Positions 18,169 to 54,552 of a stretch of DNA of 64,000 nt are shown piece by piece. Both the position numbers and the translations under genes were made by a program. This DNA comes from a virus, in the IMG/VR virus record IMGVR_UViG_3300042446_001440, positions 16,170-80,169 of that record. One strand, given 5' to 3'. The notes under the pieces are model-generated. The model worked only from the letters and a program-made list of their open reading frames with translations, was not told where the DNA came from and searched no databases. Every line of letters starts with the position of its first letter. The first letter of the stretch is position 1.

Positions 18169-18177
18169 TTTATTATA

Positions 18178-19119: not shown

Positions 19120-19129
19120 ACGTATAATA

Positions 19130-19291: not shown

Positions 19292-19300
19292 ACACATAAT

Positions 19301-19468: not shown

Positions 19469-20084
19469 ATCAAACGGTAATCTATCCCGTACACCAGAAG
19501 AAATAGAACAAATGATCGAAAATGCTACAACAGCATACGCTAACTTCCTTACAGCAGTTGGATTTGACTATACAGCAGATAGACAAACCGAAGATACACC
19601 TCGTCGTGTAGCTAAAGCATGGCTTAAGGACCTAATTGTAGGTTCAGTAACAAACGAACCAAACATCACTACATTTCCTAACGATGAAGGATATGATGGA
19701 TTAGTAATTCAATCAGGTATCCCTATCACTAGTATGTGTGCACATCATAACCTAGCATTTACTGGATTCGCTACAGTAGCATACGTTCCAGGTGAAATGG
19801 TAATCGGATTATCAAAACTAAATCGTATCGTTGAATGGTTTGCTCGTAGACCACAAATGCAAGAATCATTAACACAACAAATTCATGATTATATTGCTGA
19901 TAAGATGGATTGTAAATCAGTAGCAGTAAGTATCGCTTGTAAACATACATGCTGTTCACATAGAGGTATTAAACACGCCTCAGTAATGTCAACCAATAAA
20001 TTCAGTGGAGTATTCATGGAACGAGACAATTTAATCCGTGAAGAATTACTATCAGCAATCGAAATGAACGGAACTAAATTCTAA
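19452..20084 (+). CDS. folE: GTP cyclohydrolase I
   Basis: The 210-residue protein contains SMCAHHNLAFTGFATVAYVPG, VIGLSKLNRIVEWFARRPQ and CKHTCCSHRGIKH, the zinc-site and substrate motifs of FolE. It makes dihydroneopterin triphosphate from GTP, the first step toward preQ0. With QueD, QueE and QueC in the preceding 6 kb, this completes the pathway and makes deazaguanine synthesis a more likely purpose than folate. Confidence 0.93.
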   Translation: MKLLTKSNGNLSRTPEEIEQMIENATTAYANFLTAVGFDYTADRQTEDTPRRVAKAWLKDLIVGSVTNEPNITTFPNDEGYDGLVIQSGIPITSMCAHHNLAFTGFATVAYVPGEMVIGLSKLNRIVEWFARRPQMQESLTQQIHDYIADKMDCKSVAVSIACKHTCCSHRGIKHASVMSTNKFSGVFMERDNLIREELLSAIEMNGTKF

Positions 20085-33982: not shown

Positions 33983-33983
33983 T

Positions 33984-35294: not shown

Positions 35295-35338
35295 TACAGG
35301 AGCCGTAGTTTATACTTATCAAAATAACAACTTAAATT

Positions 35339-35731
35339 ATGAAAGAATTACTTACAATATGTCCTAAATGCAGTTCAAATGCATGTAGTGAAATATCAAA
35401 TGATAAATTAATTGTATGGAATTGTTTTGGATGTGGCTTCACATCCAATTCAACCCTTACAGAAAAAAATATAGAAACAACAGAGGAAGTATTACCTGAA
35501 TTATATAAAGCACTTAGATTTAAAAGTGTTGAAGGATTATATTGGTATCCTATGTCTGTAATATTAGAAAATAAAGCAATGGTATTTGCTGAAGGTAAAA
35601 CCATTGAAGATTGGAAATGGTCTGCCATTCAATCTAAAGAAGATAAACCTGATATGTCTACTAAAAAAGAATATATAGAATCCGAGTTTATGGATGCGTT
35701 AGAATATATTGGTTACTTTAATCAAAAATAA
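35339..35731 (+). CDS. Zinc-ribbon hypothetical protein (130 aa)
   Basis: CPKCSSNACSE followed by WNCFGCGFTSN forms a four-Cys zinc ribbon at the N-terminus. The remainder is an acidic domain with no known family. It sits inside the glycan cluster but resembles a general phage protein more than an enzyme. Confidence 0.55.
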   Translation: MKELLTICPKCSSNACSEISNDKLIVWNCFGCGFTSNSTLTEKNIETTEEVLPELYKALRFKSVEGLYWYPMSVILENKAMVFAEGKTIEDWKWSAIQSKEDKPDMSTKKEYIESEFMDALEYIGYFNQK

Positions 35732-35733
35732 AT

Positions 35734-36360
35734 ATGCCTACAATTAGTTATGCAATTACAGCCTGTAATGAACATGTTGAATTAGAACGTCTATTAAATC
35801 AATTAAACGAAAGTATTCGTCTTGAAGATGAGATAGTGGTTCAATTAGATATAACAGCTACTGCTGAAGTTAGGGCGGTAGCTGAACATTATAATGTAGG
35901 AGCTCAATATGAATACCATAGAGTATATGCTACACTAAATAACGACTTCGCATCATTTAAAAATAATCTTAGCGAACATTGCACACGCGACTATATCTTT
36001 CAAATAGATGCAGATGAATATCCACACCCAGAACTAATTGAAAATTTACCTGCTCTTCTTGAACATAATCCTGAAATTGATGTATTTCTAGTTCCTAGAA
36101 TTAATACAGTAGAGGGACTAACAGAAGAACATATTAGAAAGTGGGGATGGAATGTACAAAATAGTAGAGTTAATTTCCCAGACTACCAATGGAGAATATG
36201 GGTAAATAAGAAAAATATTAAATGGATAAATAAAGTTCATGAACGATTAGATGGTTTTGGATTATATTGTAATTTACCTCTAATAGATGAACTATGCCTA
36301 TACCACCCAAAAGATATAATTAGACAAGAAAAACAAAATAATTTTTACAACACACTATGA
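35734..36360 (+). CDS. Glycosyltransferase family 2-like (208 aa)
   Basis: It has ISYAITACNEHVELERLL, EIVVQLD and the DxD-like FQIDADEYPHPEL motif of GT-A folds, with a C-terminal NKVHERLDG segment. It starts 2 nt after the zinc-ribbon gene, and its stop overlaps the first FkbM methyltransferase gene (ATGA). Confidence 0.82.
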   Translation: MPTISYAITACNEHVELERLLNQLNESIRLEDEIVVQLDITATAEVRAVAEHYNVGAQYEYHRVYATLNNDFASFKNNLSEHCTRDYIFQIDADEYPHPELIENLPALLEHNPEIDVFLVPRINTVEGLTEEHIRKWGWNVQNSRVNFPDYQWRIWVNKKNIKWINKVHERLDGFGLYCNLPLIDELCLYHPKDIIRQEKQNNFYNTL

Positions 36361-37091
36361 ACTCAGAAATATTTAAAAATGAAGACGGCACTTTCATCAT
36401 TTTCCCGAATGACGCTATTGCCCAACATATTAAAAGTGGTAGATTATGGGAACCTCATTTTAAGACTGTTATTTCCAATTTAATTGAACTAGGAAATACA
36501 GTCGTTGATTGCGGTGCTAATTTTGGATACAATGCTGTTTTGATGGGGAAAGAAATAGGATCTAATGGAATGCTTATAGCATTTGAACCACAAAGAATTA
36601 TCCATCAACAACTGAATGGTAATTTAATATTAAATAACATATTCAATGCAATTACTTTCCAAGCAGCCTTAGGAGATGGTTCTATATCATCAACTACTAT
36701 GAGTTCTGTGAATTATGAACTACCTTGGGTAAACATTGGAGATACATCTGTGGGAAATGGTGGAGAAGAAGTAGCTGTTTACTCATTAGATAGCATCAAT
36801 ATGGTAAGTGTAGATTTTATCAAAATAGATGTTCAGGGATATGAATTATTTACACTTCAAGGAGCTAAAGATACTTTAAGTAAATTTCAACCTGATCTAT
36901 TTATTGAAATTGAACCACATCAACTAATTAAATTTGGTATAAATGCAGACCAGTTATTAGATTATATTAAGTCATTTGGATATAAGATCTTTAAAATAAA
37001 TAATGACTATCCTTGTGATCACATCTGTACAATAAACAATCTAGATAAAATAGAAAAACTAAAAAATTTATTACCGTTATTAGAAGTATAA
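36357..37091 (+). CDS. FkbM-family methyltransferase (244 aa)
   Basis: TVVDCGANFGYNAVLMGKEIG is the SAM-binding motif I, AFEPQ is motif II, and DFIKIDVQGYELFTLQGA is the FkbM core. FkbM enzymes O-methylate sugars, polyketides or peptides. It is one of three or four FkbM-type paralogues in this cluster (also at 38005, 40890 and 41484), suggesting methylated glycans. Confidence 0.85.
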   Translation: MNSEIFKNEDGTFIIFPNDAIAQHIKSGRLWEPHFKTVISNLIELGNTVVDCGANFGYNAVLMGKEIGSNGMLIAFEPQRIIHQQLNGNLILNNIFNAITFQAALGDGSISSTTMSSVNYELPWVNIGDTSVGNGGEEVAVYSLDSINMVSVDFIKIDVQGYELFTLQGAKDTLSKFQPDLFIEIEPHQLIKFGINADQLLDYIKSFGYKIFKINNDYPCDHICTINNLDKIEKLKNLLPLLEV

Positions 37092-38014
37092 TGAAAAAAG
37101 TTTTATTTTTTGATCCTCATTTAAATGAGAGGGGAACTAGTATTGCTACATATGACTATGCTTATTACAATGAAACTATTTTAGGAAATAAATCTATCAT
37201 AGCATCTCTAACATCATCAGAATTAAAAAGTTATAATAAGTTTAATGATAGGTTTGAAGTCATTATGTGTAAGGACACAGCTGAATTATCTAATATTGAG
37301 TGTGATTACATGTATGTATTAAAATTTGGTACTAATGATGGGGTATTACATAAAAATGCTAAGAATTTAGTTCATGTTGTGTTTCCATCATACGATCCTC
37401 ATGGAGATGTATATGCTTACATTTCAAAATGGTTAGCTGAGGCTCATGGCAAAAACTCTCTATTTGTACCCCATATGGTTAATCTACCAGAGGTTAAAGA
37501 AGATTTTAAAGATTTTTTTAAGATTAAAGATAAGTTAGTAGTTGGTTGGTATGGAGGTGATAATTTTGACATTTCATTTGCTCAACAAGCTGTTATAGAG
37601 GCTGCATCTAAAAGGAGTGATATTGTATTTCTATTTATGAACCAATCAGCGTTCTGTGATATAGATAACGTCATATTTGTTAAAGGAACTACAGATCAAG
37701 AACAAAAAGTAGCATTCATCAACACATGTAATGTTATGATACATGCTAGAGAAAGAGGAGAAACATTTGGATTAGCAGTAGCAGAATTTTCCTCCAAAAA
37801 CAAACCAATCATTACTTACTTTGACTCACCAGAAAGAAACCATTTAGTTCAATTGAGAGATAAAGGAATTTATTATTCTAATTACTCAGAATTACTAAAT
37901 ATACTACTTAACATCCAATTATCAGATATTCAACACAGAGAATGGAATCAATATACTGATTTTACTCCTGAAAAAGTTATTAATCAATTTAACAATGTAT
38001 TTTTATGGAATTAG
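37091..38014 (+). CDS. Glycosyltransferase-like protein (307 aa)
   Basis: VLFFDPHLNERGTSIATYDYAY at the N-terminus and NVMIHARERGETFGLAVAEFSSKNKPIITYFDS at the C-terminus fit a GT4-type fold with an E-x-FGLA-x-E donor motif. KDKLVVGWYGGD begins the second Rossmann domain. It overlaps the previous stop by one base. Confidence 0.75.
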   Translation: MKKVLFFDPHLNERGTSIATYDYAYYNETILGNKSIIASLTSSELKSYNKFNDRFEVIMCKDTAELSNIECDYMYVLKFGTNDGVLHKNAKNLVHVVFPSYDPHGDVYAYISKWLAEAHGKNSLFVPHMVNLPEVKEDFKDFFKIKDKLVVGWYGGDNFDISFAQQAVIEAASKRSDIVFLFMNQSAFCDIDNVIFVKGTTDQEQKVAFINTCNVMIHARERGETFGLAVAEFSSKNKPIITYFDSPERNHLVQLRDKGIYYSNYSELLNILLNIQLSDIQHREWNQYTDFTPEKVINQFNNVFLWN

Positions 38015-38598
38015 ATCAAATTAAATCTTATTTTACCCCCACCAATATCTTAGATATTGGGGCTAATGTTGGTGGATGGTATAATCATTGTAAATCTTAC
38101 TTCCCAGATAGCTATATACTTTCTATTGAAGCAAATGAAGGGTGTGAAAGTGCTTTAAAAGCATGCAATCCAAATTATATTATTGCTTTATTAGCAAAGG
38201 ACGAAGAGATGTATGATTTTTTTACATTAAGGGATGCCCCTACAGCTACTGGTAATTCAATATATAAAGAATTAACTTATGTCTACACGGATAACTCTAC
38301 TATCATTAATAAGAAAAAAGGAGTAATGTTAGATAATTTATTAAGAAATCGAAGTTTTAATTTAATCAAAATGGATGTACAGGGGGCAGAACTAGATGTG
38401 ATTAAAGGGGGGCTAACAATATGTAAACAAGCTAAAGGAATAATCTTAGAAGTAGCTTTTGAAGCATACAATCAAAATGCCCCATTATATGATGAAGTAA
38501 TAGAATATATGTCTTCAATAGGATTCAGTAAAGAATTAATACTAACAAACCTACCACAACACCATGACATATTCTTTATAAATAAAAATATTTTATAA
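38005..38598 (+). CDS. FkbM-family methyltransferase (197 aa)
   Basis: It is compact: NILDIGANVGGWYNHCKSYFP (SAM motif I), ILSIEANEGCE and NLIKMDVQGAELDVIKGG. It is shorter than its paralogue at 36357. It overlaps the upstream glycosyltransferase by 10 nt and is followed immediately by the next gene. Confidence 0.82.
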   Translation: MELDQIKSYFTPTNILDIGANVGGWYNHCKSYFPDSYILSIEANEGCESALKACNPNYIIALLAKDEEMYDFFTLRDAPTATGNSIYKELTYVYTDNSTIINKKKGVMLDNLLRNRSFNLIKMDVQGAELDVIKGGLTICKQAKGIILEVAFEAYNQNAPLYDEVIEYMSSIGFSKELILTNLPQHHDIFFINKNIL

Positions 38599-39468
38599 AT
38601 GAAGATATTATACGTAACTAACCATTTAAGTATAGCTAGAGCAAGTGGTGGATATATTAATGATTATCAAAATGATCTAATATTCTATGGGTTAAGAGAA
38701 TTATTTGGAGACGATGTTGTAGATAGTACCCAAATCGTATCACTTTATAAAGAAAATAAAGATAAAATACCATCCCAACACATATGGGGAGGTATGACTA
38801 CTTGTTGGTTAATAGATAAAAATAATATTAACCGGGATAGTATTGAAGACAAAATTAAATCCCAATATTACGATTTAATAATATATGGTACTATTAAAAG
38901 ATGTAAAGACTATTACGATTTAGCTTCTAAAGTATATCCCCCAAATAAAATAATTCTAATTGATGGTAATGACGAAAGTGAATTAGATCCTCTTTATAAA
39001 AAACATTTATATTTTAAAAGAGAATTAACTATAAACCATCCTAATCTTCTACCTATAACATTCGGAATACCTACTTCTAAAATAGCCACACCTACCCTTG
39101 CAAAAACTAAAGATTTTGCTACATGTATACCTGGCCAACCTGAAACTTATATTTTTAAAGAAGAACAGCCATATTATGAAGATTATCAAAAATCATTTTA
39201 TGGAGTAACCATAAAGAAAGCTGGGTGGGATTGTATGAGACACTATGAAATATTAGCTAATTATTGCATACCCTACTTCATTGGATTGGAAGATTGTCCT
39301 AAAGATACACTATCTCATTTTCCTAAAGAATTATTATTAGAAGCAAGAGAATTAGCTAATAACTTTGATGAGCAAAAATACTTCAATATATTGGATGAAT
39401 TATTTAATTACACAAAAAATAATTTAACAACAAAAAGCATAGCAAACTATATAATATCTAAAATATAA
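38599..39468 (+). CDS. Glycosyltransferase-like protein (289 aa)
   Basis: It has KILYVTNHLSIARASGGYIND, YDLIIYGTIKRC and a C-terminal KKAGWDCMRHYEILANYCIPYFIGLEDCPKD region seen in spore-coat and exostosin-like glycosyltransferases. No DxD motif is obvious. The assignment rests on this pattern and on the surrounding cluster. Confidence 0.6.
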   Translation: MKILYVTNHLSIARASGGYINDYQNDLIFYGLRELFGDDVVDSTQIVSLYKENKDKIPSQHIWGGMTTCWLIDKNNINRDSIEDKIKSQYYDLIIYGTIKRCKDYYDLASKVYPPNKIILIDGNDESELDPLYKKHLYFKRELTINHPNLLPITFGIPTSKIATPTLAKTKDFATCIPGQPETYIFKEEQPYYEDYQKSFYGVTIKKAGWDCMRHYEILANYCIPYFIGLEDCPKDTLSHFPKELLLEARELANNFDEQKYFNILDELFNYTKNNLTTKSIANYIISKI

Positions 39469-40121
39469 TGTACACTAGTAATTTACACGAACCCGAAACT
39501 ATCCGCAATTTAAATTGTGAAATTAAACGTCACGATATAATTAATCATTTAATTGGAAAATACAATTTGGTTAATTACTTAGAGATTGGTGTATTTAAAG
39601 GAGAAAATATAAGAGAAATTAATGCTCTCCATAAAGATGGAGTTGACCCCGGACATGAAGGGGTAATAGTACCTGAAGTAAATTATAGAATGACGTCAGA
39701 CGATTTCTTTGAATTACTTAAAGGACATGAGGATATTAAATATGATATTATTTTTATAGATGGTTTACATCATGCTGACCAAGTAACTAAAGATATTAAG
39801 AATGCTTTAAATCACTTAGTACCTAAAGGGTTTGTTGTATTACACGATTGTAATCCAATCAGCTATGAAGCACAACTAATACCTAGACAAACAGTAGCTT
39901 GGAATGGTGATACATGGAAGGCATTTGTTGGATTTAAAATGGATAATATAGATTTTCAATGTTGTGTTATAGATACTGACTTTGGAGTTGGAGTAATTAA
40001 GAATACTGTTTACACACCTAAATTTAATATCCATTCAACTTTACATTGGAATCAGCTTAACGAAGATAGAAAACAGTTATTAAATCTAATTAGTTATGAT
40101 GAATTTAAAGCAACTTATTAA
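39468..40121 (+). CDS. Class I SAM-dependent methyltransferase (217 aa)
   Basis: NYLEIGVFKGENIREI is a motif I-like SAM loop, and IIFIDGLHHADQVTKDI plus GFVVLHDCNP match the Methyltransf_24 type often found in surface-glycan loci. It starts at an ATG overlapping the preceding stop. Confidence 0.75.
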   Translation: MYTSNLHEPETIRNLNCEIKRHDIINHLIGKYNLVNYLEIGVFKGENIREINALHKDGVDPGHEGVIVPEVNYRMTSDDFFELLKGHEDIKYDIIFIDGLHHADQVTKDIKNALNHLVPKGFVVLHDCNPISYEAQLIPRQTVAWNGDTWKAFVGFKMDNIDFQCCVIDTDFGVGVIKNTVYTPKFNIHSTLHWNQLNEDRKQLLNLISYDEFKATY

Positions 40122-40893
40122 TAAATCTGTTTACGGAACGATAGGTTATATTTCATCTCAAGAAGATTTAGATGTATTAGAACAATATATTGTATATAAT
40201 TTACCTGTTTTAAAAGAATTTAAACAAATATTAGTAGCAACTAATTATTCTGATTTAGATCTAATAGAAGATAATAAACAACTATGGACTAAATATTTTC
40301 CAAATTGTACTTTATTAGACTCCAAAACTAATAGGGGCCATAACTTTGGCACAGCGGATTTAGATAATATGATTTTTAATTATTGCAAAACAACAGGTGA
40401 AGAATGGCTATGCAAATCAGCAAATGACATTATAGTTCAGGAATCAATATTAAATAAAGAAGTAGAAGAAGCTGACTTTTACTATATGAATGGGATTGGC
40501 TATACAGGTATGGCGGAATATGACTTTGATTTTGATAGGATAGTGAAGGAATGTTTTTATCCCCAAACAAATCTATATTTTGTAAATGTTAGTAAAACTG
40601 ATTATCTAACAGATAAAATATATCTAGACGAAACATATCAATATTCCCTAACTATTCCCAATTATAATGGAAAAATATGGGAATATATTAGTGGATGGAG
40701 TTGTGAAAATTTTCTTAAACAATGTGTTGAAAGGAATAATCTTTCTAAATATAATTGGGTTTCTCAAGAAAAGTATCGTAATTTACTTCAAATAATAAAA
40801 GACTTTAATTTCCATGATTGTAGTCATAAAAATATAATGATAGAGGGTGTATGTCATCTTCAAAATCCTCAAAATCAAATAATAGAAATATGA
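40096..40893 (+). CDS. Putative glycosyltransferase (265 aa)
   Basis: It has an N-terminal GTIGYISSQEDLDVLEQYIV, then NRGHNFGTADLDNMIF and EWLCKSANDIIVQES, resembling GT-A enzymes where an N/SAND stretch replaces DxD. The assignment is cautious and partly contextual. The start overlaps the previous gene by 26 nt (ATG at 40096 or 40099), and its stop overlaps the next start (ATGA). Confidence 0.5.
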   Translation: MMNLKQLINKSVYGTIGYISSQEDLDVLEQYIVYNLPVLKEFKQILVATNYSDLDLIEDNKQLWTKYFPNCTLLDSKTNRGHNFGTADLDNMIFNYCKTTGEEWLCKSANDIIVQESILNKEVEEADFYYMNGIGYTGMAEYDFDFDRIVKECFYPQTNLYFVNVSKTDYLTDKIYLDETYQYSLTIPNYNGKIWEYISGWSCENFLKQCVERNNLSKYNWVSQEKYRNLLQIIKDFNFHDCSHKNIMIEGVCHLQNPQNQIIEI

Positions 40894-41474
40894 AAAATAT
40901 CTTTTTAGATTGTGGAACGCATTTATGTGAAGGATTAATTAATTTCTATAATAAGGGAATTATAGATGATACCTTTGAAATACATACATTTGAAGCAAAC
41001 CCAGAATGTAATATAGAGGAAAGAATTAAACAAATTCCTTTAAATATAATTCCATATAACAAAGCAGTATGGATTGAAGATGGATTTATATACTTTAATC
41101 AAGAAAACCATCAAGAGAGTAGAACCGGCTCTCCAACAGACGGATATTCAAATATTGATGGATGGGGATCATCTGTTGATGGTATAGGATTTAATCATCC
41201 TGGATATAATACTAAAGTTAAAGTACCAAGTATAAACTTCAGTAAATTTGTCTCTGAATTTCCATCCGAATCAAATATAATTTGTAAAATAGATATTGAA
41301 GGAAGTGAGTATGAAGTTCTTAGACATATGATTAGAGAAAATACAATTACAAAAATAAAAGAATTATATATAGAATTCCATGAAAGATTTATGCCTGCTG
41401 AATCTCCAGAAACAGAACAAAAACTAATTACTCAGATCCAGGATTTAGGAATTAAAGTACATACCTGGTTTTAA
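40890..41474 (+). CDS. FkbM-like methyltransferase (194 aa)
   Basis: I start it at ATG 40890, because the frame upstream is low-complexity Ser/Asn and overlaps the previous gene. NIFLDCGTHLCEGLINF replaces the usual GAN-G motif, THTFEANPEC-like EIHTFEANPECN follows, and IICKIDIEGSEYEVLRHMI is the FkbM core. The DCGTH motif is atypical, so SAM binding may be altered. Confidence 0.7.
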   Translation: MKNIFLDCGTHLCEGLINFYNKGIIDDTFEIHTFEANPECNIEERIKQIPLNIIPYNKAVWIEDGFIYFNQENHQESRTGSPTDGYSNIDGWGSSVDGIGFNHPGYNTKVKVPSINFSKFVSEFPSESNIICKIDIEGSEYEVLRHMIRENTITKIKELYIEFHERFMPAESPETEQKLITQIQDLGIKVHTWF

Positions 41475-41483
41475 TATAATAAC

Positions 41484-42230
41484 ATGGATATATATTTTAA
41501 AGAAACCCCAGCAGGTCATTTTTGCCTTATTGAAAAAGATCTAATTAGTAGCTGTATAGCCAACTCAGGATATTGGGAACCTCATTTATATTATTTTTAC
41601 TCTCAATTTATTAAACCCAATTACACCATTATAGATGGAGGAGCTAATATTGGTTTTCATAGCATACAATTCGCTAAATTAGCAAATGAAGGTAAAGTAT
41701 ATAGCTTTGAACCACAATCACTAATATTTAATGTTCTATCAACTAATTCACTTATAAATGGAACAAGTGATATAATCCTACAATATAGATTAGGTTTAAG
41801 TGATACTGATGGTAACCTAAAAATGACTCCACTCAGTGAACAACAATTCTCAGAAACTTGTATTAACTATGGAGGAAGAGGAATAACAGACTCAGATTTG
41901 GGTGAGGAAGTAGTAGAATTAACAACTATAGATAACTTACATTTACCTAAATTAGATTTTATTAAACTAGATGTACAAGGATTTGAATTAAAAGCACTTA
42001 AGGGTGGTGAAAATACTATTAAGTCTAATTACCCAATAATGTTTATTGAAAATTATCTTAATTTAGAAGTAGACCAACATGTAATGCAGTTATTAGAAGA
42101 TTGGGGGTATGTAATATATAGATTATTATGTACTGAGAATAAAGAAGATTGTATAATAGTACATCCAGAAAGACACATTGAAGAAATTAAATTTATTGAA
42201 ACACAAGATAAAATAAAATGGACAAAATAA
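41484..42230 (+). CDS. FkbM-family methyltransferase (248 aa)
   Basis: It closely parallels the enzyme at 36357: SGYWEPHLYYF, TIIDGGANIGFHSIQFAK, YSFEPQS and LDFIKLDVQGFELKALKGG. The two probably arose by duplication within the cluster. It overlaps the last glycosyltransferase gene by 13 nt. Confidence 0.85.
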   Translation: MDIYFKETPAGHFCLIEKDLISSCIANSGYWEPHLYYFYSQFIKPNYTIIDGGANIGFHSIQFAKLANEGKVYSFEPQSLIFNVLSTNSLINGTSDIILQYRLGLSDTDGNLKMTPLSEQQFSETCINYGGRGITDSDLGEEVVELTTIDNLHLPKLDFIKLDVQGFELKALKGGENTIKSNYPIMFIENYLNLEVDQHVMQLLEDWGYVIYRLLCTENKEDCIIVHPERHIEEIKFIETQDKIKWTK

Positions 42231-43414
42231 CGTTTTGCATACCTAGTAAAAATAATTTAAGATACTTAAAAACATGTATCCCTTCTATTCGTAAAAATTC
42301 ATTTAGAAAAGACCATGATATTATTGTATTTGTAGATAGCGATAATGATGGGACTGTAAACTGGTTAGAAGAAAATAAAGAACAATACAATATTACATAC
42401 TATATTAACCCAGATCTAGGAAAACAATTATTTGGAATAGGTAAAGCATATGATTATTGCATTGAACATTCTCAAACAGACATATGTATGATATTTCATG
42501 CTGATATGATGTTAGGTAAGGATGCTGATTTAGAAGCATATAAACATATGCAATCAAAAACAGTAGTATGTTCTACTAGAATTGAACCACCTCTACACCC
42601 AAATGCTGGAGAGAAAATACTTCAAGATTTTGGAGTATGGCCTGAAGATTTTAAAGAAAATGAATTTAATGAATTCGTAGAGCAAACCAAACAACAATAC
42701 GAGGATAAAATAACCAATGGTATATTTGCACCGTGGATGATATATAAACAAGACTTATTAGCTCTAGGAGGACATGACCCTATATTAATGTCAGCTAGAG
42801 AAGATTCGGACCTATTTAACAGAATGAAATTAGCTGGGTATAAGTTTATTCAAAGCTGGAAGTCTTTAGTATACCATTTAACGGGAAGAGGAGGACAATT
42901 TCAACACGGAGATATAGAAAAAGCTAAAAGTGAAGAATGGCAAAAACTAATGAATAATTCAACTAAAGAATTTATTAGAAAATGGGGATCTCCAGTTAAA
43001 CATACTCCATTAATGGATCCTATAATACTTCCTAAATATAATATTGCCTTTGTAATTAATAACGGTAATTTACCATTATTAGACGCATTAGAGCCATGGT
43101 GTGATAGGATATATGTTAATGAGAAATTTAAGGTAATAGGTAGAGCTTGGGATTATGTTGAGATGGAACAGAGTAATACCAAATTTGATTTAAGTAAACG
43201 CGTATTAACTATAGAAAACAATGATCCAATTAGTGAAAATGATATAGTAGTTGAATTTGATGGAAATCAGATAACCCAACAATCATTCCTCATATTACAG
43301 CAGTTACCCGATATTATACAGAACTCGGGAGCGATCGGAACATTTGAATTAGATATATTTAAAATAACAATCAATAGTTTAGAAACATACGAACATACTT
43401 TAATATATTTATAG
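42218..43414 (+). CDS. Glycosyltransferase family 2-like (398 aa)
   Basis: ITFCIPSKNNLRYLKTCIPSI, IIVFVDSDNDGT and MIFHADMMLG (DxD-like HAD) mark a GT-A fold, and SAREDSDLFNRMKLAGYKFIQSW is the acceptor-side ED motif. The last ~110 residues are an extra domain of unknown role. It is the final gene of the glycan run. Confidence 0.8.
   Translation: MDKITFCIPSKNNLRYLKTCIPSIRKNSFRKDHDIIVFVDSDNDGTVNWLEENKEQYNITYYINPDLGKQLFGIGKAYDYCIEHSQTDICMIFHADMMLGKDADLEAYKHMQSKTVVCSTRIEPPLHPNAGEKILQDFGVWPEDFKENEFNEFVEQTKQQYEDKITNGIFAPWMIYKQDLLALGGHDPILMSAREDSDLFNRMKLAGYKFIQSWKSLVYHLTGRGGQFQHGDIEKAKSEEWQKLMNNSTKEFIRKWGSPVKHTPLMDPIILPKYNIAFVINNGNLPLLDALEPWCDRIYVNEKFKVIGRAWDYVEMEQSNTKFDLSKRVLTIENNDPISENDIVVEFDGNQITQQSFLILQQLPDIIQNSGAIGTFELDIFKITINSLETYEHTLIYL
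43404..43412 (+). promoter_or_regulatory. TATATTTAT box upstream of the ClpP-like gene
   Basis: The box overlaps the stop region of the last glycosyltransferase and lies 18 nt before the protease start, so it may begin a new transcript. Confidence 0.4.
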
Positions 43415-46634: not shown

Positions 46635-46707
46635 TCCAGAATAGCTCAGTTGGTAGAGCAGCTGATTTGTAATCAGCAGGTCGCAAGTTCGACTCTTGTT
46701 TCTGGAT
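46635..46707 (+). tRNA. tRNA-Thr (TGT)
   Basis: The full cloverleaf is visible: acceptor TCCAGAA/TTCTGGA, D-arm AGCTCAGTTGGTAGAGCA, anticodon stem GCTGA/TCAGC with loop TTTGTAA (anticodon TGT) and T-arm GCAAG-TTCGACT-CTTGT. CCA is not encoded. Confidence 0.93.
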
Positions 46708-46708
46708 C

Positions 46709-46809
46709 AAGGATGAGAGAATACAAAGTAGCAGCACCCGTCATCATGTGTAACTCGTGGTGCCAACTACCAGTAACTTTGTTTGGTTGGCCAACCGAAC
46801 CTCATCTTT
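46709..46809 (+). ncRNA. Unassigned structured RNA between tRNA-Thr and tRNA-Ser
   Basis: AAGGATGAG (46709-46717) closes with CTCATCTTT (46801-46809). Inside, ACAAAGT (46723) pairs with ACTTTGT (46776), GTAG with CTAC, and GCACC (46734) with GGTGC (46759), giving one long arm. A GGTT/AACC hairpin follows. The closing stem and two-arm layout recall a tRNA, but no anticodon or T-loop consensus is present. Confidence 0.5.
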
Positions 46810-46812
46810 ATT

Positions 46813-46899
46813 GGAAGAGTAGCCAAGCGGTTGACGGCACCTGACTTGAAATCAGACATACGGGAAACTGTATCGTGGGTTCGAATCCTACCTCTTCCG
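46813..46899 (+). tRNA. tRNA-Ser (TGA)
   Basis: It has acceptor GGAAGAG/CTCTTCC, D-arm AGCCAAGCGGTTGACGGC, anticodon loop CTTGAAA (TGA), a class II variable arm (ATACGGGAAACTGTAT) and T-loop TTCGAAT. CCA is not encoded. Confidence 0.95.
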
Positions 46900-46904
46900 C
46901 AGCT

Positions 46905-46975
46905 TGGGTTATGGTGTAATGGCAACACTACAGATTTTGATTCTGTCGTTTTAGGTTCGAGTCCTGGTAACCCAA
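46905..46975 (+). tRNA. tRNA-Gln (TTG)
   Basis: It has acceptor TGGGTTA/TAACCCA, anticodon stem ACAGA/TCTGT with loop TTTTGAT (TTG), and T-arm TTAGG-TTCGAGT-CCTGG. It is compact and complete. Confidence 0.95.
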
Positions 46976-46979
46976 CAAA

Positions 46980-47111
46980 AAGAACTAGCAAACAAATGAC
47001 ACGCACGGCAGCCTGGAATGTGTGCACACTGAACAGGCAATGCGAACGAAGAGGATGGGATACCTCACTGTGCGTAGGTTAGATTCAACGCCCGTCGCTA
47101 GTTCTTTTTTT
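46980..47111 (+). ncRNA. Structured RNA closed by a 10-bp stem and ending in a T-tract
   Basis: AAGAACTAGC (46980-46989) pairs perfectly with GCTAGTTCTT (47097-47106), followed directly by a T7 tract as in an intrinsic terminator. Inside are GCCTG/CAGGC enclosing a GTGTGCACAC palindrome, GAGG/CCTC, and GCGT/ACGC around AGGTTAGATTCA. It is not a recognised tRNA. It could be a discrete small RNA with its own terminator. Confidence 0.55.
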
Positions 47112-47115
47112 ACAT

Positions 47116-47275
47116 TGTAGGATGGTGAAATGCTCTAGAGCTTGGAATACACAGCGCCCCGTCTAGGCGCCGCGGATCACGAAATAGATAAATGATAATG
47201 GGTTGACCACACGCTTGCAAGCACAAATGTCATTTATTGAATCGCCGTATGGAGGTTCAAATCCTTCTCCTACAG
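47116..47275 (+). ncRNA. Oversized tRNA-like RNA (about 160 nt)
   Basis: The acceptor TGTAGGA pairs with TCCTACA, and a perfect T-arm, GGAGG-TTCAAAT-CCTTC, precedes the 3' strand. A GTG/CAC D-stem has a GCTCTAGAGC hairpin inserted in its loop, and GCGCC-CCGTCTA-GGCGC could be a 7-nt anticodon-like loop. About 80 further nt, including a TAAATGA/TCATTTA stem, replace the variable loop. It is not a normal tRNA and may be an interrupted or repurposed one. Confidence 0.5.
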
Positions 47276-47277
47276 CT

Positions 47278-47424
47278 AAAGAGGATAAAATGTGTAGTAA
47301 CCTCAAGGAAGCTAGCTCCTACTACACTCTTTAAGTGTTACCCAAAGGGTAAACGCACTGGTATGAGACTTGTTCTCTCAAACTCGATACCTAAAGTTGA
47401 GCTGTCAATTGAAAGATTGACTTA
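47278..47424 (+). ncRNA. String of perfect hairpins before tRNA-Leu
   Basis: AAAGAG/CTCTTT encloses GTGTAGTA/TACTACAC and AGGA/TCCT. Then come TTACCC-AAA-GGGTAA, TGAGA-CTTGTTC-TCTCA within GGTAT/ATACC, and GTCAAT-TGAAAG-ATTGAC. Every stem is perfect, so the stretch is under structural constraint. No protein start or tRNA is visible. Confidence 0.5.
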
Positions 47425-47426
47425 AT

Positions 47427-47512
47427 GCCCCGGTGGTGGAACTGGTAGACACGCAGGACTTAAAATCCTGTTCGCTGTAAGGCGAGTGACGGTTCGATTC
47501 CGTTCTAGGGCA
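47427..47512 (+). tRNA. tRNA-Leu (TAA)
   Basis: It is class II. Acceptor GCCCCGG/CTAGGGC has one C-A mismatch. D-arm GTGGAACTGGTAGACAC, anticodon stem CAGGA/TCCTG with loop CTTAAAA (TAA), variable arm TCGCTGTAAGGCGA and T-loop TTCGATT complete the molecule. Confidence 0.94.
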
Positions 47513-47525
47513 CATAATTATAATC

Positions 47526-47843: not shown

Positions 47844-48292
47844 TCCGTATGAGATGGGTATGTATACACGCAGAGACATGGCATTCATTCTCTTTAATCA
47901 TGATGCAAACAATTTAAACGACAACAAAATCGCTCGTCAAGAAATCGGTGCTTCTATTATCAACATGGCTTTTGCTAGAGTTGCTATGGCTGCCTAAGAT
48001 CTTCGGATCTTTCTTTCCCTGGCAACTTGGGTGAAACAGTAAGTTGCAAAAAATTCCACTTTGGGGAGTAGGGTGTTCATCTACCCGACGCCCACCAGGT
48101 TGGGGATGTACGACCATAACACGTCCGTGGAGCTGATGAAAATGTTTTTCTAGTTATGTCAAAACTAGATGGTGGACTGTTACCAAATCGGTAGCCCTAA
48201 CATACGGTGCAGTAGCAATACAGTACTAAGCGTGTGAGAAGCTGTACATATTTGTACTTACGGAGACGAGGGTTCGAACCCCTCCATCTCCA
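47823..48292 (+). ncRNA. ssrA: Transfer-messenger RNA (tmRNA)
   Basis: 5' GGGGATG (47823) pairs with 3' CATCTCC (48285-48291, one G-U), followed by discriminator A. The T-arm is GAGGG-TTCGAAC-CCCTC. P2 forms from CCGTA/TACGG (47845/48259), TATGTA/TACATA (47859/48245) and ACACGC/GCGTGT (47866/48230). A tag frame with probable resume codon GCA at 47905 runs ANNLNDNKIA... to ...RVAMAA and a TAA at 47995. A hairpin AAGATC-TTCG-GATCTT sits at the stop codon, then a pseudoknot with CCC/GGG and GCAACTT/AAGTTGC. It rescues stalled ribosomes with SmpB, which is not seen here. The exact resume codon is uncertain. Confidence 0.85.
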
Positions 48293-48309
48293 CTCATCTC
48301 CCCCTGTTC

Positions 48310-48339
48310 TCATATATTTATTGGAAACAATAATTATGA
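48310..48339 (+). repeat. 30-nt leader shared with the GIY-YIG gene (copy 2)
   Basis: It is identical to 11489-11518 and includes the TATATTTAT box (48313-48321) and the start codon of the HNH gene, 18 nt after the tmRNA 3' end. Confidence 0.7.
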
Positions 48340-48782
48340 AAACAGGGACTAAGGAGTATTATGCCAATTATTATGAGCAAAACAAAGAAGAACATAATTT
48401 TAAGTCTATAGAGTGGCAATCTCAAAATAAAGATAAGGCATTAGAATCCGTTAAAAAATGGAAAGGAAAGAATGCAGATAAAGTAAGAGAATGGGATAGA
48501 TTACGGAAACAACAACAAAATAAAGAACGTAGACAATTTGTAAATGAATATAAATTAACATGTTCTTGTAAAAAATGTGGCGATATTAGACCATATGTCT
48601 TAGATTTTCACCACTTGGACCCTTCAGCCAAATCGTTTGACTTAGGTAATGCTTCCAAATATAATATATCTAAATTAAAATTAGAATTAGAAAAATGTAT
48701 TACATTATGCAGAAATTGCCATAGTGAATTTCATTATTTTGAAAAAAAACAAAATATAATTATTACGGAGTATGTAAAATAA
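48336..48782 (+). CDS. HNH homing endonuclease (148 aa)
   Basis: A basic N-terminal half (EYYANYYEQNKEEHNFKSIEW) leads to the HNH core: TCSCKKCGDIRPYVLDFHHLDP and CITLCRNCHSEFHY, with two CxxC zinc pairs. I start at ATG 48336 because the upstream in-frame sequence overlaps the tmRNA. Its insertion just beyond the tmRNA fits a mobile element using RNA genes as a safe site. Confidence 0.85.
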   Translation: MKTGTKEYYANYYEQNKEEHNFKSIEWQSQNKDKALESVKKWKGKNADKVREWDRLRKQQQNKERRQFVNEYKLTCSCKKCGDIRPYVLDFHHLDPSAKSFDLGNASKYNISKLKLELEKCITLCRNCHSEFHYFEKKQNIIITEYVK

Positions 48783-48890: not shown

Positions 48891-49403
48891 ATGAGACACT
48901 TCATTTTAGTTGTCCTCGCAGCATTCCTAATGGTAGGTTTTGTGGGTGATAAACGTAAAATGAAAAGATCCCACCATAATCCTACTAAACTGTGTGTAAA
49001 CAGCGTCACAAACAACATTAAAGTTGGCCCTCTAACGGGCAATCAGAATTTATCATTTGGAGTTAAAAATATACTTGAAGAAGTAGCCCAAGACCGAGGA
49101 TGGATACTCGTAGATAGATTTGAAGCAGATCAAGTACTCGATGTAGAAATAGTTTATTTCGACTACGAGCAAACTAAAAGTAATATGTCTGTATTTCATA
49201 AAAATGAAAACAAAATCATTATTACAATACAAGGTACAGTCACCGAAAACGGAAAGGTAGTAAAATCAACCTCAGTTACAGACAAATCAGGAGAAGTAGT
49301 TTCGTCAACAGGAATAGTAGCGGAAGGGGGAACCTTTAGCTCAGTTATGGTAAGAAACGCAATCAAGAAAACTTGCGTTGTTATGGCTTATCGTATACTA
49401 TAA
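48891..49403 (+). CDS. Exported protein, possibly CsgG/LptE-like fold (170 aa)
   Basis: I start at ATG 48891, which gives the signal-peptide-like MRHFILVVLAAFLMVGFVG. The mature part has GVKNILEEVAQDRGWILVDRFEADQVLDVEIVYFDY, an alpha/beta pattern resembling the periplasmic domain of CsgG or LptE-type proteins. This family call is weak. It opens a run of exported proteins. Confidence 0.5.
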   Translation: MRHFILVVLAAFLMVGFVGDKRKMKRSHHNPTKLCVNSVTNNIKVGPLTGNQNLSFGVKNILEEVAQDRGWILVDRFEADQVLDVEIVYFDYEQTKSNMSVFHKNENKIIITIQGTVTENGKVVKSTSVTDKSGEVVSSTGIVAEGGTFSSVMVRNAIKKTCVVMAYRIL

Positions 49404-49413
49404 AAACTGAAGC

Positions 49414-51171
49414 ATGAAACAAACATTAGTATTATTACTACTATTAATAGGATTTAATTCCTATAGTCAAAACTGGCCTAAAATATGGGTCCCTTCAAGT
49501 GTAACTAAAGATATCAATGGTGGCACTATTAGTAAAGGAGATACTGTAGATGTTGTAATTGAAATGAATAGAAACTACAACGATCAAGAACCATTATCAA
49601 ATCAAATCCGCTCAATACTATTTGATTTTCAACATCAAAACGATGCTTTTAAGTTAATAAACATGATTGTCCCTACTATTGGTAGTGGAGCAATACCTAA
49701 TACCAACTACAGTATTAGTAAAAATGAATACCCAGGATATAACTATTTAGAATCAACTTTAAACACAACTACTAATGGTAATACAAATTATAACTATAGT
49801 AACTATGCTTATAGTCCAACAAGTGTTAAACAAATTACTCGTGTTAGTCTAAATATTAATGCTAATTTAGGTAATGGGGTTATTTTTATACTTCGTTTTA
49901 TAGCATTAAATCCAAATGCAGGGTATGTATACGATCCTCTAAAAATGAACTTCGCAGCCTGTTTTACAACTACATCCGGTGCTGGAGGAAGTATTATGAC
50001 AAATCAAATATGTCCATTTATTTTAGATCCTACTGCTAACTCATTATTAACATTAAAAATGGAAAATAATAGTAATTTAGATATGGGTTATATGCCTAAA
50101 GTGTATATTGGAGAATATGCACAAGATGGTACTACACAAGTAGATGTAAAAGAATTTAGCATAGCATCTAATGGTGTTGTAAATATAGATCAAAGTTGGT
50201 TAAAAACAAATACTAACTATTTTATTATGCCGTGGGCACCACTAGATAGTGCGTATTCTATACAAGATAAAGCAGTAACCGTATCTGATTTTACAGCAGC
50301 CCAAACTGAGTTTATTAATCAAAATCTAGATAAAACATATAGTAACTCAAATATGCAAACAGGTATGAGTTATTATGCCTCGGATGTAGATAAGAATCAG
50401 ATATTTGATGCTGCTGATGTTAATAAAATATTTACTCAAGTTACAGGGGCAGGATATCTGTTAACTGTTAATCAAGCAAATTCATGGAATAATAGCGTAT
50501 TTACATTCTTTACAGATAGTATGTATAATAATTTAAAAACTACTAATTGGTCTACTATTAACTCTTGGAAAGTAGATTTCAAAACATCATCTGTAAACCA
50601 AAATGTTAATTTAAAATACTCAATATTAGGAGATATTAATCGTTCACACTCATCTCAAGTAATAACAACTACAGGTCAGATTATAAGTAATAGAATAGCA
50701 AATAATTCTAATGTAACTACTCCTTTGGTATTCATTAATACACCAAATGAAATATCAAATATAGACGTTAATTTAAACAACGTTACAGTGACGTCTGATA
50801 ATATTGAAATACCATTTAAAGTAGATTCAAAAACAAATAAAACATCAGCATTACAATTTGAAATAGTATATGACGCAACTAAAATTAAATTTGAAGAAAT
50901 AAAATCTGAATTACCTAATACATGGTTTACATTTGTAAATCCAACAACAGGCAAAATTAAATTTGGAGCAATTGATAAAGATTTAAAAACTCCAATTACG
51001 GGAGCAACTATACCATTCAAATTAAGATTCTCCTCTATAGGAAGTGGAGTTGATGTATTATCTCAAATTAAAATAACATCAAATATGGATGCTAGTGATA
51101 ATAAGGGTAATCAATTAGGAATCAATTTAAATATAGTAACCATTAAATTAACAGGATACAATAAATTTTAA
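49414..51171 (+). CDS. Secreted cohesin/dockerin-like surface protein (585 aa)
   Basis: MKQTLVLLLLLIGFNSYSQ is a Sec signal peptide. Residues ~20-200 and ~440-585 look like cohesin-type beta-sandwiches (SALQFEIVYDATKIKFEEI near the end is typical). DVDKNQIFDAADVNKIFTQ is a calcium-binding dockerin/EF-hand-like loop, and ILGDINRSHSS may be a second. Such modules mediate tight protein pairing at cell surfaces. In a phage this is unusual; it may be a virion adhesin or act on the infected cell's surface. Confidence 0.6.
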   Translation: MKQTLVLLLLLIGFNSYSQNWPKIWVPSSVTKDINGGTISKGDTVDVVIEMNRNYNDQEPLSNQIRSILFDFQHQNDAFKLINMIVPTIGSGAIPNTNYSISKNEYPGYNYLESTLNTTTNGNTNYNYSNYAYSPTSVKQITRVSLNINANLGNGVIFILRFIALNPNAGYVYDPLKMNFAACFTTTSGAGGSIMTNQICPFILDPTANSLLTLKMENNSNLDMGYMPKVYIGEYAQDGTTQVDVKEFSIASNGVVNIDQSWLKTNTNYFIMPWAPLDSAYSIQDKAVTVSDFTAAQTEFINQNLDKTYSNSNMQTGMSYYASDVDKNQIFDAADVNKIFTQVTGAGYLLTVNQANSWNNSVFTFFTDSMYNNLKTTNWSTINSWKVDFKTSSVNQNVNLKYSILGDINRSHSSQVITTTGQIISNRIANNSNVTTPLVFINTPNEISNIDVNLNNVTVTSDNIEIPFKVDSKTNKTSALQFEIVYDATKIKFEEIKSELPNTWFTFVNPTTGKIKFGAIDKDLKTPITGATIPFKLRFSSIGSGVDVLSQIKITSNMDASDNKGNQLGINLNIVTIKLTGYNKF

Positions 51172-51173
51172 TT

Positions 51174-51542
51174 ATGAAAAAATTATTATTAACCACATTA
51201 ATCGTTTTATTAGTAATTGGAGGATGTCAAAAAATTGATGTTCCTATTATTAAACCACAAATAATAGAGCTAGGTAAAACATCAACATCAACTCAAATTA
51301 ATAATATAACACAAGTAAATAATGTATTTACTATTGGGTATACTGTAACTACAGGAGCTAAATATTCAGTACAGATTATACCATTTGGAAGTGAAACACC
51401 TGTAAAAACATTAGGATTTACGGCATTAACAGATACAGTTACAAAAACATATGATTTAAATTCTTTAGATAAAAAAGATTATGATATCATATTAATCGAT
51501 ATAAACGGAACAGAAACAAAAAGACCTATAAAAATTAAATAA
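51174..51542 (+). CDS. Predicted lipoprotein (122 aa)
   Basis: MKKLLLTTLIVLLVIGGCQ is a lipobox signal peptide with Cys18. The mature part is a Thr/Ile-rich beta domain (YTVTTGAKYSVQIIPFGSE), perhaps Ig-like. It begins 2 nt after the cohesin-like gene and probably anchors part of that envelope module. Confidence 0.65.
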   Translation: MKKLLLTTLIVLLVIGGCQKIDVPIIKPQIIELGKTSTSTQINNITQVNNVFTIGYTVTTGAKYSVQIIPFGSETPVKTLGFTALTDTVTKTYDLNSLDKKDYDIILIDINGTETKRPIKIK

Positions 51543-51543
51543 A

Positions 51544-51900
51544 ATGGCAAAAATAACTAAAACAACTAAGACAACAGAAGAAGCGGCAATGGCTAAAAAC
51601 GAAAAACACAATGATGGTACAATGAGTGGTTTAAAAAAGACCATGATTGGTACTATTGGTACATTAGTAACAGCAGGTGGAGCATTTTTAATGACGTATA
51701 TGCAAAAACCAAAAGAAGGTGATGTTAAACAAGCAGCACCCCAAAGTATTAATATTAATATGCCTGCTCAACAACAGGCAACTTCAAATAGTAAAACAGT
51801 AATCATCAAAGAAAAAAGTAGTACTGCACCTCAACCAGTTGCTCCTGCTACTAAGAAAAAAGATGGTGATGAATTTAAAGAGAAACCTGCTCAGTGGTAA
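51544..51900 (+). CDS. Single-pass membrane protein with Pro/Ala/Gln-rich tail (118 aa)
   Basis: It has a basic N-terminus, one hydrophobic helix (MIGTIGTLVTAGGAFLMTYM, about 34-53) and a long disordered tail (PAQQQATSNSKTVIIKEKSS). The layout recalls inner-membrane spanins or TonB-like linkers that reach across the periplasm. Given the neighbouring holin-like gene, a lysis role is plausible. Confidence 0.5.
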   Translation: MAKITKTTKTTEEAAMAKNEKHNDGTMSGLKKTMIGTIGTLVTAGGAFLMTYMQKPKEGDVKQAAPQSININMPAQQQATSNSKTVIIKEKSSTAPQPVAPATKKKDGDEFKEKPAQW

Positions 51901-51932
51901 TTACCCCTTGTTAACCGTTAAAAATTAAAAGT

Positions 51933-52190
51933 ATGAATTTCAAACAATGGATCATCGACTTATTTAAAGATGAGAGAGGATCAACATCAATCAAACCAGT
52001 TATTGCATTTGTAGGTGCTTTATTCCTATGTGGAACAATGTTAGCGAATAGCTTTTCAAAAGCTGATTTCGCTCCATCTCCAGATTTAGTAAATGCAGTA
52101 ATGATTATCACCGCAATTGGTATGGGTGCTGATACATTAGATAAATTTACTAAAAAAGCAAAAGCTGAAGAACCAAAAACAGAAGAATAA
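51933..52190 (+). CDS. Holin-like membrane protein (85 aa)
   Basis: FKDERGSTSIKPVIAFVGALFLCGTMLANSF and LVNAVMIITAIGMGADTLDKF give two membrane helices flanked by charged ends, as in class II holins. A C-terminal KKAKAEEPKTEE tail is charged. A strong hairpin terminator follows. It is assigned from topology only. Confidence 0.5.
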   Translation: MNFKQWIIDLFKDERGSTSIKPVIAFVGALFLCGTMLANSFSKADFAPSPDLVNAVMIITAIGMGADTLDKFTKKAKAEEPKTEE

Positions 52191-52192
52191 TT

Positions 52193-52220
52193 AAGGGAGG
52201 GTTTAGGCCCTCCTTTCCTT
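52193..52220 (+). terminator. Intrinsic terminator after the holin-like gene
   Basis: AAGGGAGGG pairs with CCCTCCTTT (9 bp with one G-U) around TTTAGG, followed by CCTTT. Confidence 0.65.
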
Positions 52221-52239
52221 TAACCATTAAAACTAAAAA

Positions 52240-52491
52240 ATGAAAAAACTAAAAAACATAGGTCGTGCTATTGCTATGGCATCCCTATTATTAATGTCAG
52301 TAATGATATTTAGTATAGTATTTTTCGAATTGTATCTAGTCTACTTAAATACATCAGGACAAATCGAAAAATCAGAAAAAATAATGAGCGATATTGATTT
52401 TAAAATTGATGGAACCTATAAAACTAACCCCAATAATATTTGGTATGAAAAACCTACTGATAATATTACCTCTACTAATAGCATTAAGTAG
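52240..52491 (+). CDS. Single-pass membrane protein (83 aa)
   Basis: It has one long hydrophobic helix (about 12-36, AIAMASLLLMSVMIFSIVFF) with a charged periplasmic tail. Its last 47 nt overlap the start of the CsgG-like gene in another frame, coupling the two. Confidence 0.5.
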   Translation: MKKLKNIGRAIAMASLLLMSVMIFSIVFFELYLVYLNTSGQIEKSEKIMSDIDFKIDGTYKTNPNNIWYEKPTDNITSTNSIK

Positions 52492-53161
52492 TAAATCTCA
52501 AAACATTGGTACAACCAAAACAGAGGAATATAAAGCCTCGTTTGAAACCAAAGTAAATATTGACTCATTAATGGATTATAGTGGCCCAACCATCCCTATT
52601 CAGATATTAAAATGTGGTATAAGCGATGAAATATATGAACAATACCCAGAACTCAAAGAAAAGAAAGTCGGTCTTGGTGTGGCGAATATATCTATGGAAT
52701 ACCTTGAAAATCTTAACCGTTTTACTTTTACTGAAGATAAAACAGAAATAAAGAATAGAATGGTAAAACAATTTCAGGCATCACAATCTGGAATTAGTCA
52801 AGATAAATTAGATGGACGTGGTAAAATACGTCTTGCTCATTACTTCGTTGAAATTGAAGTATATGATTTCTCAGTAAGTGAAGATGAAACAGTTAATCTA
52901 AAAGATGGAGTTAAAAATTTAGTTGTAACTCGTTTAGGTTTACAAGTACGTTTTACTGATGCTGAAACGGGTGAAATACTATCAGCAAGTGGATTAGGTG
53001 AAGCTAAAACAACTCGTGAAATGAGTTTAATGAGTGATGCTAATTTATCTGATATTAAATTTAACCAATCAACAATAGGAACGACAACTAAAAAAGCATT
53101 AGATATAGCCTGTAGTAGAATATTACTGAGGATGATTAAGAAGAATATATTCAAGAAATAA
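52445..53161 (+). CDS. CsgG-like exported protein (238 aa)
   Basis: I start at ATG 52445, giving the signal peptide MKNLLIILPLLIALSSKSQ. The core VTRLGLQVRFTDAETGEILSASGLGEAKTT and the preceding AHYFVEIEVYDFSV resemble CsgG, whose oligomer forms an outer-membrane secretion pore for curli. It lacks an obvious lipobox Cys. CsgG/CsgF homologues have been reported in marine T4-like phages, where a pore or lysis role has been proposed. That role here is inference. Confidence 0.6.
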   Translation: MKNLLIILPLLIALSSKSQNIGTTKTEEYKASFETKVNIDSLMDYSGPTIPIQILKCGISDEIYEQYPELKEKKVGLGVANISMEYLENLNRFTFTEDKTEIKNRMVKQFQASQSGISQDKLDGRGKIRLAHYFVEIEVYDFSVSEDETVNLKDGVKNLVVTRLGLQVRFTDAETGEILSASGLGEAKTTREMSLMSDANLSDIKFNQSTIGTTTKKALDIACSRILLRMIKKNIFKK

Positions 53162-53169
53162 TCTAATGA

Positions 53170-54552
53170 ATGTTGAAAAAAATAATATACACGTTATTAC
53201 TAACGTTAGTTAGTTTCATAACTAAGGGACAGGTTATTACTCAAACCTATATAGACCCATGTGATAGTAAAACATATACTGTTACATTCCCTGTCCAAGC
53301 CCAAGCTGTAATGGTAATAATCAGAAATGAATATAAATCATTTAGCTATACTGAGGCAGCATCTGGAGCAGTATACATATGGGTTAACCAAGTATTATCT
53401 AAACCATGCCCCGTAACAACACCAGTAGTAACAACAGCGGTACAACAAGCAGTATCCCAAGCAGCAGCACAAGCAGCATCACAAGCAGCAAGTTCAGCCG
53501 CATCCTCAGCAGCAAGCGCAGCAGCATCAAATGCAGCAAGTGGAGCAGCATCAGGAGCCGCTTCAGGAGCAGCAAGTGGAGCAGCATCATCAGCAGCTTC
53601 AGGAGCAGCATCGAGTGGTGCGCCACCACCACCTCCCTCATCATCTTCATCCCAGTCTTCCTCATCATCTGGCTCTTCATCTTCATCAACCTCAAGTGGG
53701 GAGAGCAGCAGCGGAGGAAGCAGTTCAAGCAGCGAATCAAAAACGGAATCCAAAACGGAAAGCAAGAACGAATCAAAAACCGAATCAAAGGAAGAAAGTA
53801 AATCTGAAACTAAAGAAGAAAAATCAGAATCTAAAGAGGAAAAGAAAGAAGATAAAAAAGAAGAGAAGAAGGAAAGCAAAAAAGAGGAAAAGAAAAAAGT
53901 AATAATAAATCCCGTAATGATTGGTTCTGATCTAACAGTAGGTCAAAATGCAACAGGTGGATTTACACCAATTATATCATTAAGTATGTCTCAATCATCG
54001 GCTACCGGTGAATCAAGTTGGGGTGTTAGTTCAATGATTTGGGGTGATTTAAAATCGTTTGCTCTATCTATCAATAAAAGCGATATGATATTTAAGAACG
54101 GCGCTTTAACCGCTATTAAATCATATTCATATACCATTGCTCGTGTAGCTAATACAAACTTAACGTTTGGAGGCTACACTTGGATTAAACCACATCCAAA
54201 ATATGGAACATACGGTTATAATCTATCCTATATTAACATTAAATTAAAAGACGATGTTGGGTACTCATACTCAACTATGACATCAACAACAGCGTTCTGG
54301 ACTAAACCATACCCCGTAAGTAAAAGATCAGTATTATCTCCAGGAGTATTTTTAATGGCGTCACCATATGCTTTTAATAGTAAATCAGGAAGTACCTGGA
54401 ATTACAATGTAACAGGTTTAATAGGTACAGGATATAGTTTTAAATTAAGTAAAAGATTTGGCTTTAATATTGATTACAAAACAAGTATATCAACAACACC
54501 AAATACTCCAATACTAAGTTACTTCTTAATAGGTTCTAGAATGATGTTATAG
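53170..54552 (+). CDS. Outer-membrane-like protein with long low-complexity linker (460 aa)
   Basis: A signal peptide (MLKKIIYTLLLTLVSFITKG) and a short domain of about 80 residues precede an Ala/Ser-repeat segment, a Pro5-Ser-rich stretch and a Glu/Lys/Ser-charged run (about 90-260). The last ~210 residues alternate aromatic and polar residues (TFGGYTWIKPHPKYG, GYSFKLSKRFGF), ending in a hydrophobic strand, like an outer-membrane barrel. It follows the CsgG-like gene by 8 nt and may form part of the same envelope complex. Confidence 0.6.
   Translation: MLKKIIYTLLLTLVSFITKGQVITQTYIDPCDSKTYTVTFPVQAQAVMVIIRNEYKSFSYTEAASGAVYIWVNQVLSKPCPVTTPVVTTAVQQAVSQAAAQAASQAASSAASSAASAAASNAASGAASGAASGAASGAASSAASGAASSGAPPPPPSSSSSQSSSSSGSSSSSTSSGESSSGGSSSSSESKTESKTESKNESKTESKEESKSETKEEKSESKEEKKEDKKEEKKESKKEEKKKVIINPVMIGSDLTVGQNATGGFTPIISLSMSQSSATGESSWGVSSMIWGDLKSFALSINKSDMIFKNGALTAIKSYSYTIARVANTNLTFGGYTWIKPHPKYGTYGYNLSYINIKLKDDVGYSYSTMTSTTAFWTKPYPVSKRSVLSPGVFLMASPYAFNSKSGSTWNYNVTGLIGTGYSFKLSKRFGFNIDYKTSISTTPNTPILSYFLIGSRMML

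Follow-up and report, generated by a model that had tools for sequence, protein, structure and literature searches.

The eight genes between positions 48891 and 54552 probably form a module that spans the envelope of an infected Bacteroidota host and displays adhesins of the lectin type on the cell by means of the host type IX secretion system (T9SS), a reading to which we assign a probability of about 60%. The stretch of 64,000 nucleotides that was analysed, referred to here as the window, covers positions 16170-80169 of an 80,169-base virus record, and its source, by our own reading of the gene content, is a T4-like Bacteroidota phage. The module is built from known parts and its mechanistically unusual feature is a repeatedly split sorting domain. 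Among the functions that the original prediction had offered, a surface structure fits best, while a lysis pore and a dedicated secretion channel are less likely. The T9SS link, the switch between fused and split tails and the genes for lectin partners lay beyond the reach of that prediction.

The block is filled by eight genes, A to H, all on the + strand and arranged head to tail with short gaps, and all eight products are exported or membrane proteins. Gene A (48891-49403) encodes a CsgG-like/YajG-like periplasmic protein of 170 aa with an N-terminal signal or anchor segment, and it is followed by the 585-aa protein B (49414-51171) and by C (51174-51542), a 122-aa lipoprotein with the lipobox IGGC. 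D (51544-51900, 118 aa) has a Pro/Ala/Lys-rich tail and a conserved C-terminal GDEFKE..(Q/K)W motif in the alignment, and is probably a periplasmic protein anchored in the inner membrane. E (51933-52190, 85 aa) is holin-like and optional, being found in 35 of 165 loci, and F (52240-52491) is a membrane anchor of 83 aa. The last two genes encode the CsgG-like protein G (52445-53161, 238 aa) and the barrel protein H (53170-54552, 460 aa). Signal-peptide-like N-termini were recognised in A, B, G and H (by visual inspection in the case of B and G), and a crude hydropathy measure placed one hydrophobic segment each in D and F and two in E. Pfam, PHROGs and NCBIfam returned almost no matches for the window's own A-H proteins. 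The T4-type late promoter TATAAATA was without enrichment (14 found against 23 expected).

Relatives of G were confirmed 550 times among viral contigs and twice in bacterial genome contigs. The core gene order recurred in 165 loci, and since G served to select them, the numbers found (G 165, H 162, D 157, B 152, A 136 and L, a lectin protein, 117) measure how often the other genes accompany G and not the frequency of the module; the isolate Flavobacterium phage immuto is counted twice among them, since it was present in two collections. The usual orders were ABDGHL, BDGHAL, LBBDGHA and ABCDGH. A gene order kept in 165 loci indicates that the block did not arise by chance, and the envelope module that had been proposed from the run of exported and membrane proteins is upheld. 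In immuto the module corresponds to gp013-gp019, which bear no annotation beyond lectin, cohesin and hypothetical proteins, and adjoins replication and nucleotide-metabolism genes. A search of the open-access literature found no paper on the proteomics of immuto. Conservation was uneven within the module, with median identities between loci of 28% for B and 30% for H, the most variable proteins, against 60% for G, the most conserved, and 52% for D.

The fold of G was modelled with AlphaFold2 from an alignment of 48 relatives (pLDDT 75.8, pTM 0.70). When this model was compared with the PDB by Foldseek, CsgG structures took the first 16 places (best E 2e-6, probability 1.0, TM about 0.45), ahead of PelC, FlgT and LptE. 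Comparison of the G profile with 12 CsgG sequences by hhalign aligned 158 columns at an E of 1.1e-4. The CsgG-like fold named in the original prediction is thus confirmed at the level of the predicted structure and of profile comparison. It was seen only by these two routes: the Pfam CsgG model matched neither G nor anything else in the whole record, the G profile found no CsgG among PDB sequences, and a search of viral_contigs with the E. coli CsgG sequence alone gave no relative. The hairpin segments of G (about 23 and about 25 residues) are charged and shorter than those of CsgG, and the SGGxGxxYFGIG motif is missing, so that G may possibly be a periplasmic ring for which H provides the barrel, which we put forward as a hypothesis. 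The signal peptide of the window's G is without a lipobox. A lipobox-like Cys at the end of this signal peptide was present in 37 of 114 fused-type relatives (e.g. L099, L104, L139, L144, L159) against 1 of 37 split-type relatives, and lipidation of G may be confined to a single lineage.

Protein A was related to G in hhalign (E 1.6e-6), with an FNQ...KK C-terminal motif common to both, and gave a weak match to Pfam Lipoprotein_16. The block therefore has related CsgG-like proteins at its start and close to its end. A direct tie between A and CsgG was dropped, as A had no profile match to CsgG and is linked to it only through G. In some loci the N-terminus of A carried a fused segment related to F (blastp matches in L080 and L051; longer anchored A in L069, L070 and L082), which places A near the inner membrane in those loci.

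Protein H starts with a signal peptide and an N-terminal domain with two invariant Cys, continues with a low-complexity A/S-rich helix and a K/E-rich linker, and ends in a barrel (residues 249-458) for which 12 strands were predicted; the barrel with a repetitive linker was thus recovered as it had been described. Its best PDB match was FapF at about 9% identity, and OmpG, NanC, PcoB and autotransporter barrels scored close to it. Only the designation outer-membrane barrel is therefore safe at the level of the model, as the match to FapF is not specific to any exporter. Among viral proteins, Foldseek found generic phage barrels only. A PHROG match that would make H an internal virion protein was set aside as a low-complexity match, and Pfam matches on relatives of H were likewise treated as low-complexity artefacts.

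The secreted part of the module evolves fast and consists, by domain matches, of B and L. Among 47 relatives of B, Pfam recognised Cohesin in 25, Por_Secre_tail in 13, Lectin_C in 7, PA14 in 4, Dockerin_1 in 4 and GLEYA in 3, where the Cohesin scores were over or near the Pfam cut-off and the dockerin matches were below the cut-offs. The window's own B had no Pfam match, and its C-terminal cohesin (residues 462-564) and dockerin-like loop (residues 324-335) were located by alignment to these relatives only; on this basis the cohesin/dockerin-like protein noticed earlier can be identified with the 585-aa B. The L proteins (34 scanned) matched Lectin_C in 29 cases, Dockerin_1 in 9, Laminin_G_3 in 6 and Ig_7 in 5, besides PA14. 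L has a signal peptide and no match to the T9SS tail in any locus, and it was not recognised inside the window's block.

B is linked to the T9SS type A sorting domain in one of two ways: by sequence matching, the domain is fused to B as a tail or, where this tail is missing, there is a separate lipoprotein C of the same family, and never both. The NCBIfam model TIGR04183 matched the C-terminus of B in 9 of 10 proteins scanned, that is, all but the window's B (8 over the curated cut-off, 1 at it). An HMM built from the nine B tails was then used across the loci, and the 152 loci with B divided into 114 with a fused tail, 37 in which B had no tail and a separate gene C stood between B and D, and a single one with neither. 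In this last locus (L099) the tail lies in frame behind a stop codon; the in-frame stop before the T9SS tail of the cohesin protein (L099:4946-5681) is either an assembly error or a real truncation. The gap between B and D was 1-74 bp in fused loci, which leaves no room for C, against at least 351 bp in split loci.

A simple pattern detected the lipobox in 33 of the 37 C proteins. The tail HMM matched C itself in six loci (E about 1e-9 or better), and the four of these that were tested reached 7e-6 to 2e-4 with Pfam Por_Secre_tail, slightly short of the Pfam cut-off, while the profile of the C family aligned with the B tails at 3.2e-8. The window's own C had no direct T9SS domain match and joins the family by blastp (9e-8 to L058). 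As the window-type members of C taken alone reached only 0.0025 against the B tails, a shared origin of C and the tails is likely, not proven, in this phage. A PHROG match of C to the superinfection exclusion protein Cor (E 3e-4) was discarded as a match of signal peptide and lipobox. In a G tree built with 71 non-redundant loci the fused or split state changed four times, at least three of these changes being forced by well supported branches, and the exclusivity of the two states hence does not reflect one inherited event. We advance only tentatively, as a possibility, that the stand-alone lipoprotein C replaces the fused tail and sorts or holds B in trans at the host surface, and that C, a CsgG-like ring and a separate barrel together make up a display machine that spans the envelope. 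If true, this would be a mode of T9SS sorting or anchoring not described before and a new kind of phage surface structure.

Several features of the window outside the module were also recorded. Directly upstream of it are four tRNA genes (Thr, Ser, Gln, Leu) and an ORF resembling an HNH endonuclease (46635-47513 and 48234-48782). Close upstream, about ten genes at 32492-43414 read by eye in the ORF list as glycosyltransferases and FkbM-type methyltransferases, for which surface glycans or module proteins could be possible substrates. The genes resembling QueC, QueE and FolE at 15452-20084 read as a queuosine/7-deazaguanine pathway, which suggests modified phage DNA, and a 230-aa protein with long Thr runs and TTTTAAP repeats is encoded at 22709-23401.

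Other uses of the module were weighed. One is lysis, in which G and H, partnered by the holin-like E, would at a late stage of infection form an outer-membrane pore or weak spot, as was proposed for the CsgGF of phage Melnitz (PMC9004378). The CsgG fold of G and the two-helix proteins like E that adjoin the module in some loci agree with such a role. The cohesin, the lectins and the T9SS tails are left unexplained by it, most loci have no E close to the module, and in G the segments that correspond to the membrane hairpins of CsgG are short and charged. Moreover, the VanY-like probable endolysin of the window (positions 328-1092) lies about 48 kb from the module and the annotated endolysin of immuto lies 5.7 kb beyond it, so that the lysis pore complex suggested earlier fared poorly and we regard it as quite improbable. 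The module could instead be a self-contained channel in which G and H, with D and A, take B and L through the outer membrane independently of the host T9SS, and in its favour are the best structural matches of G and H, CsgG and FapF, which are both exporters, as well as the signal peptide of the tailless L. Such a channel is not the most economical explanation for the 585-aa protein, since a T9SS sorting domain of the host type is found on B in about three quarters of the loci, and loci with and without it alike retain the CsgG-like and barrel genes. That G, H, D and A occur in either type of locus, fused or split, means that they are not simply a substitute for the T9SS. The similarity to FapF is unspecific, and CsgE, CsgF and curlin repeats gave no match at E 1 in the 80-kb record, which is possibly incomplete; we consider this channel unlikely.

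The variable and modular lectin domains recall receptor-binding repertoires, and the secreted proteins might on this ground decorate virions or help the particle to adsorb or to bind its receptor. Proteins that are assembled into virions in the cytoplasm would not be expected to bear Sec signal peptides, a lipobox or a T9SS tail, and the position of the immuto module beside replication and nucleotide-metabolism genes also speaks against it, which makes a virion role very improbable.

Under the favoured reading, a lectin display on the infected cell, the core of the module comprises, by sequence and modelled structure, a probable inner-membrane protein (D), two CsgG-like periplasmic proteins (A and G) and an outer-membrane-type barrel (H). 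In fused loci B would reach the cell surface through the host T9SS, and in this phage and other split loci it may be brought to or held at the surface with lipoprotein C. L could dock on B by a cohesin-dockerin contact. D, A, G and H would bridge the inner and outer membranes, with G as ring and H as barrel, and may aid export, assembly or anchoring, a task in the display that we infer from gene order only. The changed surface binding of the infected cell would then bring a putative benefit, which is likely superinfection exclusion or the capture of neighbouring cells. If this holds, a large group of aquatic phages of Bacteroidota, one of them an isolate whose host is in culture, redecorates the host surface with variable lectins during infection by combining the host's type IX system with phage-made envelope parts. 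It would give the puzzling CsgG-like phage genes a testable role, and the repeated switch between fused and separate sorting domains offers a natural experiment on the workings of T9SS signals.

The open-access literature searched described neither the combined module nor a separate lipoprotein with a sorting domain, and the module's parts were compared with systems already known. Phage CsgG and CsgF have been reported in pelagimyophages (PMC7029224) and in Melnitz (PMC9004378), where uptake, sibling capture and lysis were proposed. The module shares with the CsgG/CsgF of HTVC008M and Melnitz and with bacterial curli (type VIII secretion) the CsgG fold with a signal peptide, and in both cases T4-like phages encode this fold next to genes for exported proteins. 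Unlike curli and marine phage CsgG, G has no CsgG similarity at the Pfam level and no SGGxGxxYFGIG motif, and it is also without a lipobox in this phage. The module also brings its own barrel protein and cohesin/lectin proteins, which bears out the earlier remark that it goes beyond CsgG/CsgF. In HTVC008M and Melnitz (L167:3818-4504 and L168:3851-4570) the gene that immediately follows csgG has the annotation curlin minor subunit CsgB or curlin-associated repeat protein, contrary to the papers on these phages, in which csgA/csgB are said to be absent.

Phage-encoded T9SS cargo has been reported in Cryophage, for which superinfection exclusion was suggested (PMC7468147), and in crAss-BACON phages (PMC6949934). 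These phages and the present module have in common proteins with type A sorting domains of the T9SS and with variable binding domains, PA14 among them. Here the cargo is a cohesin protein with lectin partners inside a conserved envelope module, and one lineage has a member of the sorting-domain family as a separate lipoprotein. The C-terminal domain on an exported protein by which type A cargo is recognised was found in the relatives of B and not in the window's B, which has gene C instead. With FapF, the channel of Pseudomonas functional amyloid, H has in common a C-terminal barrel, predicted in H to have 12 strands, after an N-terminal helical and linker region, and it differs in its long low-complexity linker and in that other 12-strand barrels score similarly. 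As in cellulosome scaffolds, a predicted cohesin is present on one exported protein and dockerin-like loops on B and its partners; in contrast to cellulosomes, the components are encoded by a phage, lectins take the place of cellulases, the dockerin scores are weak and the binding is putative.
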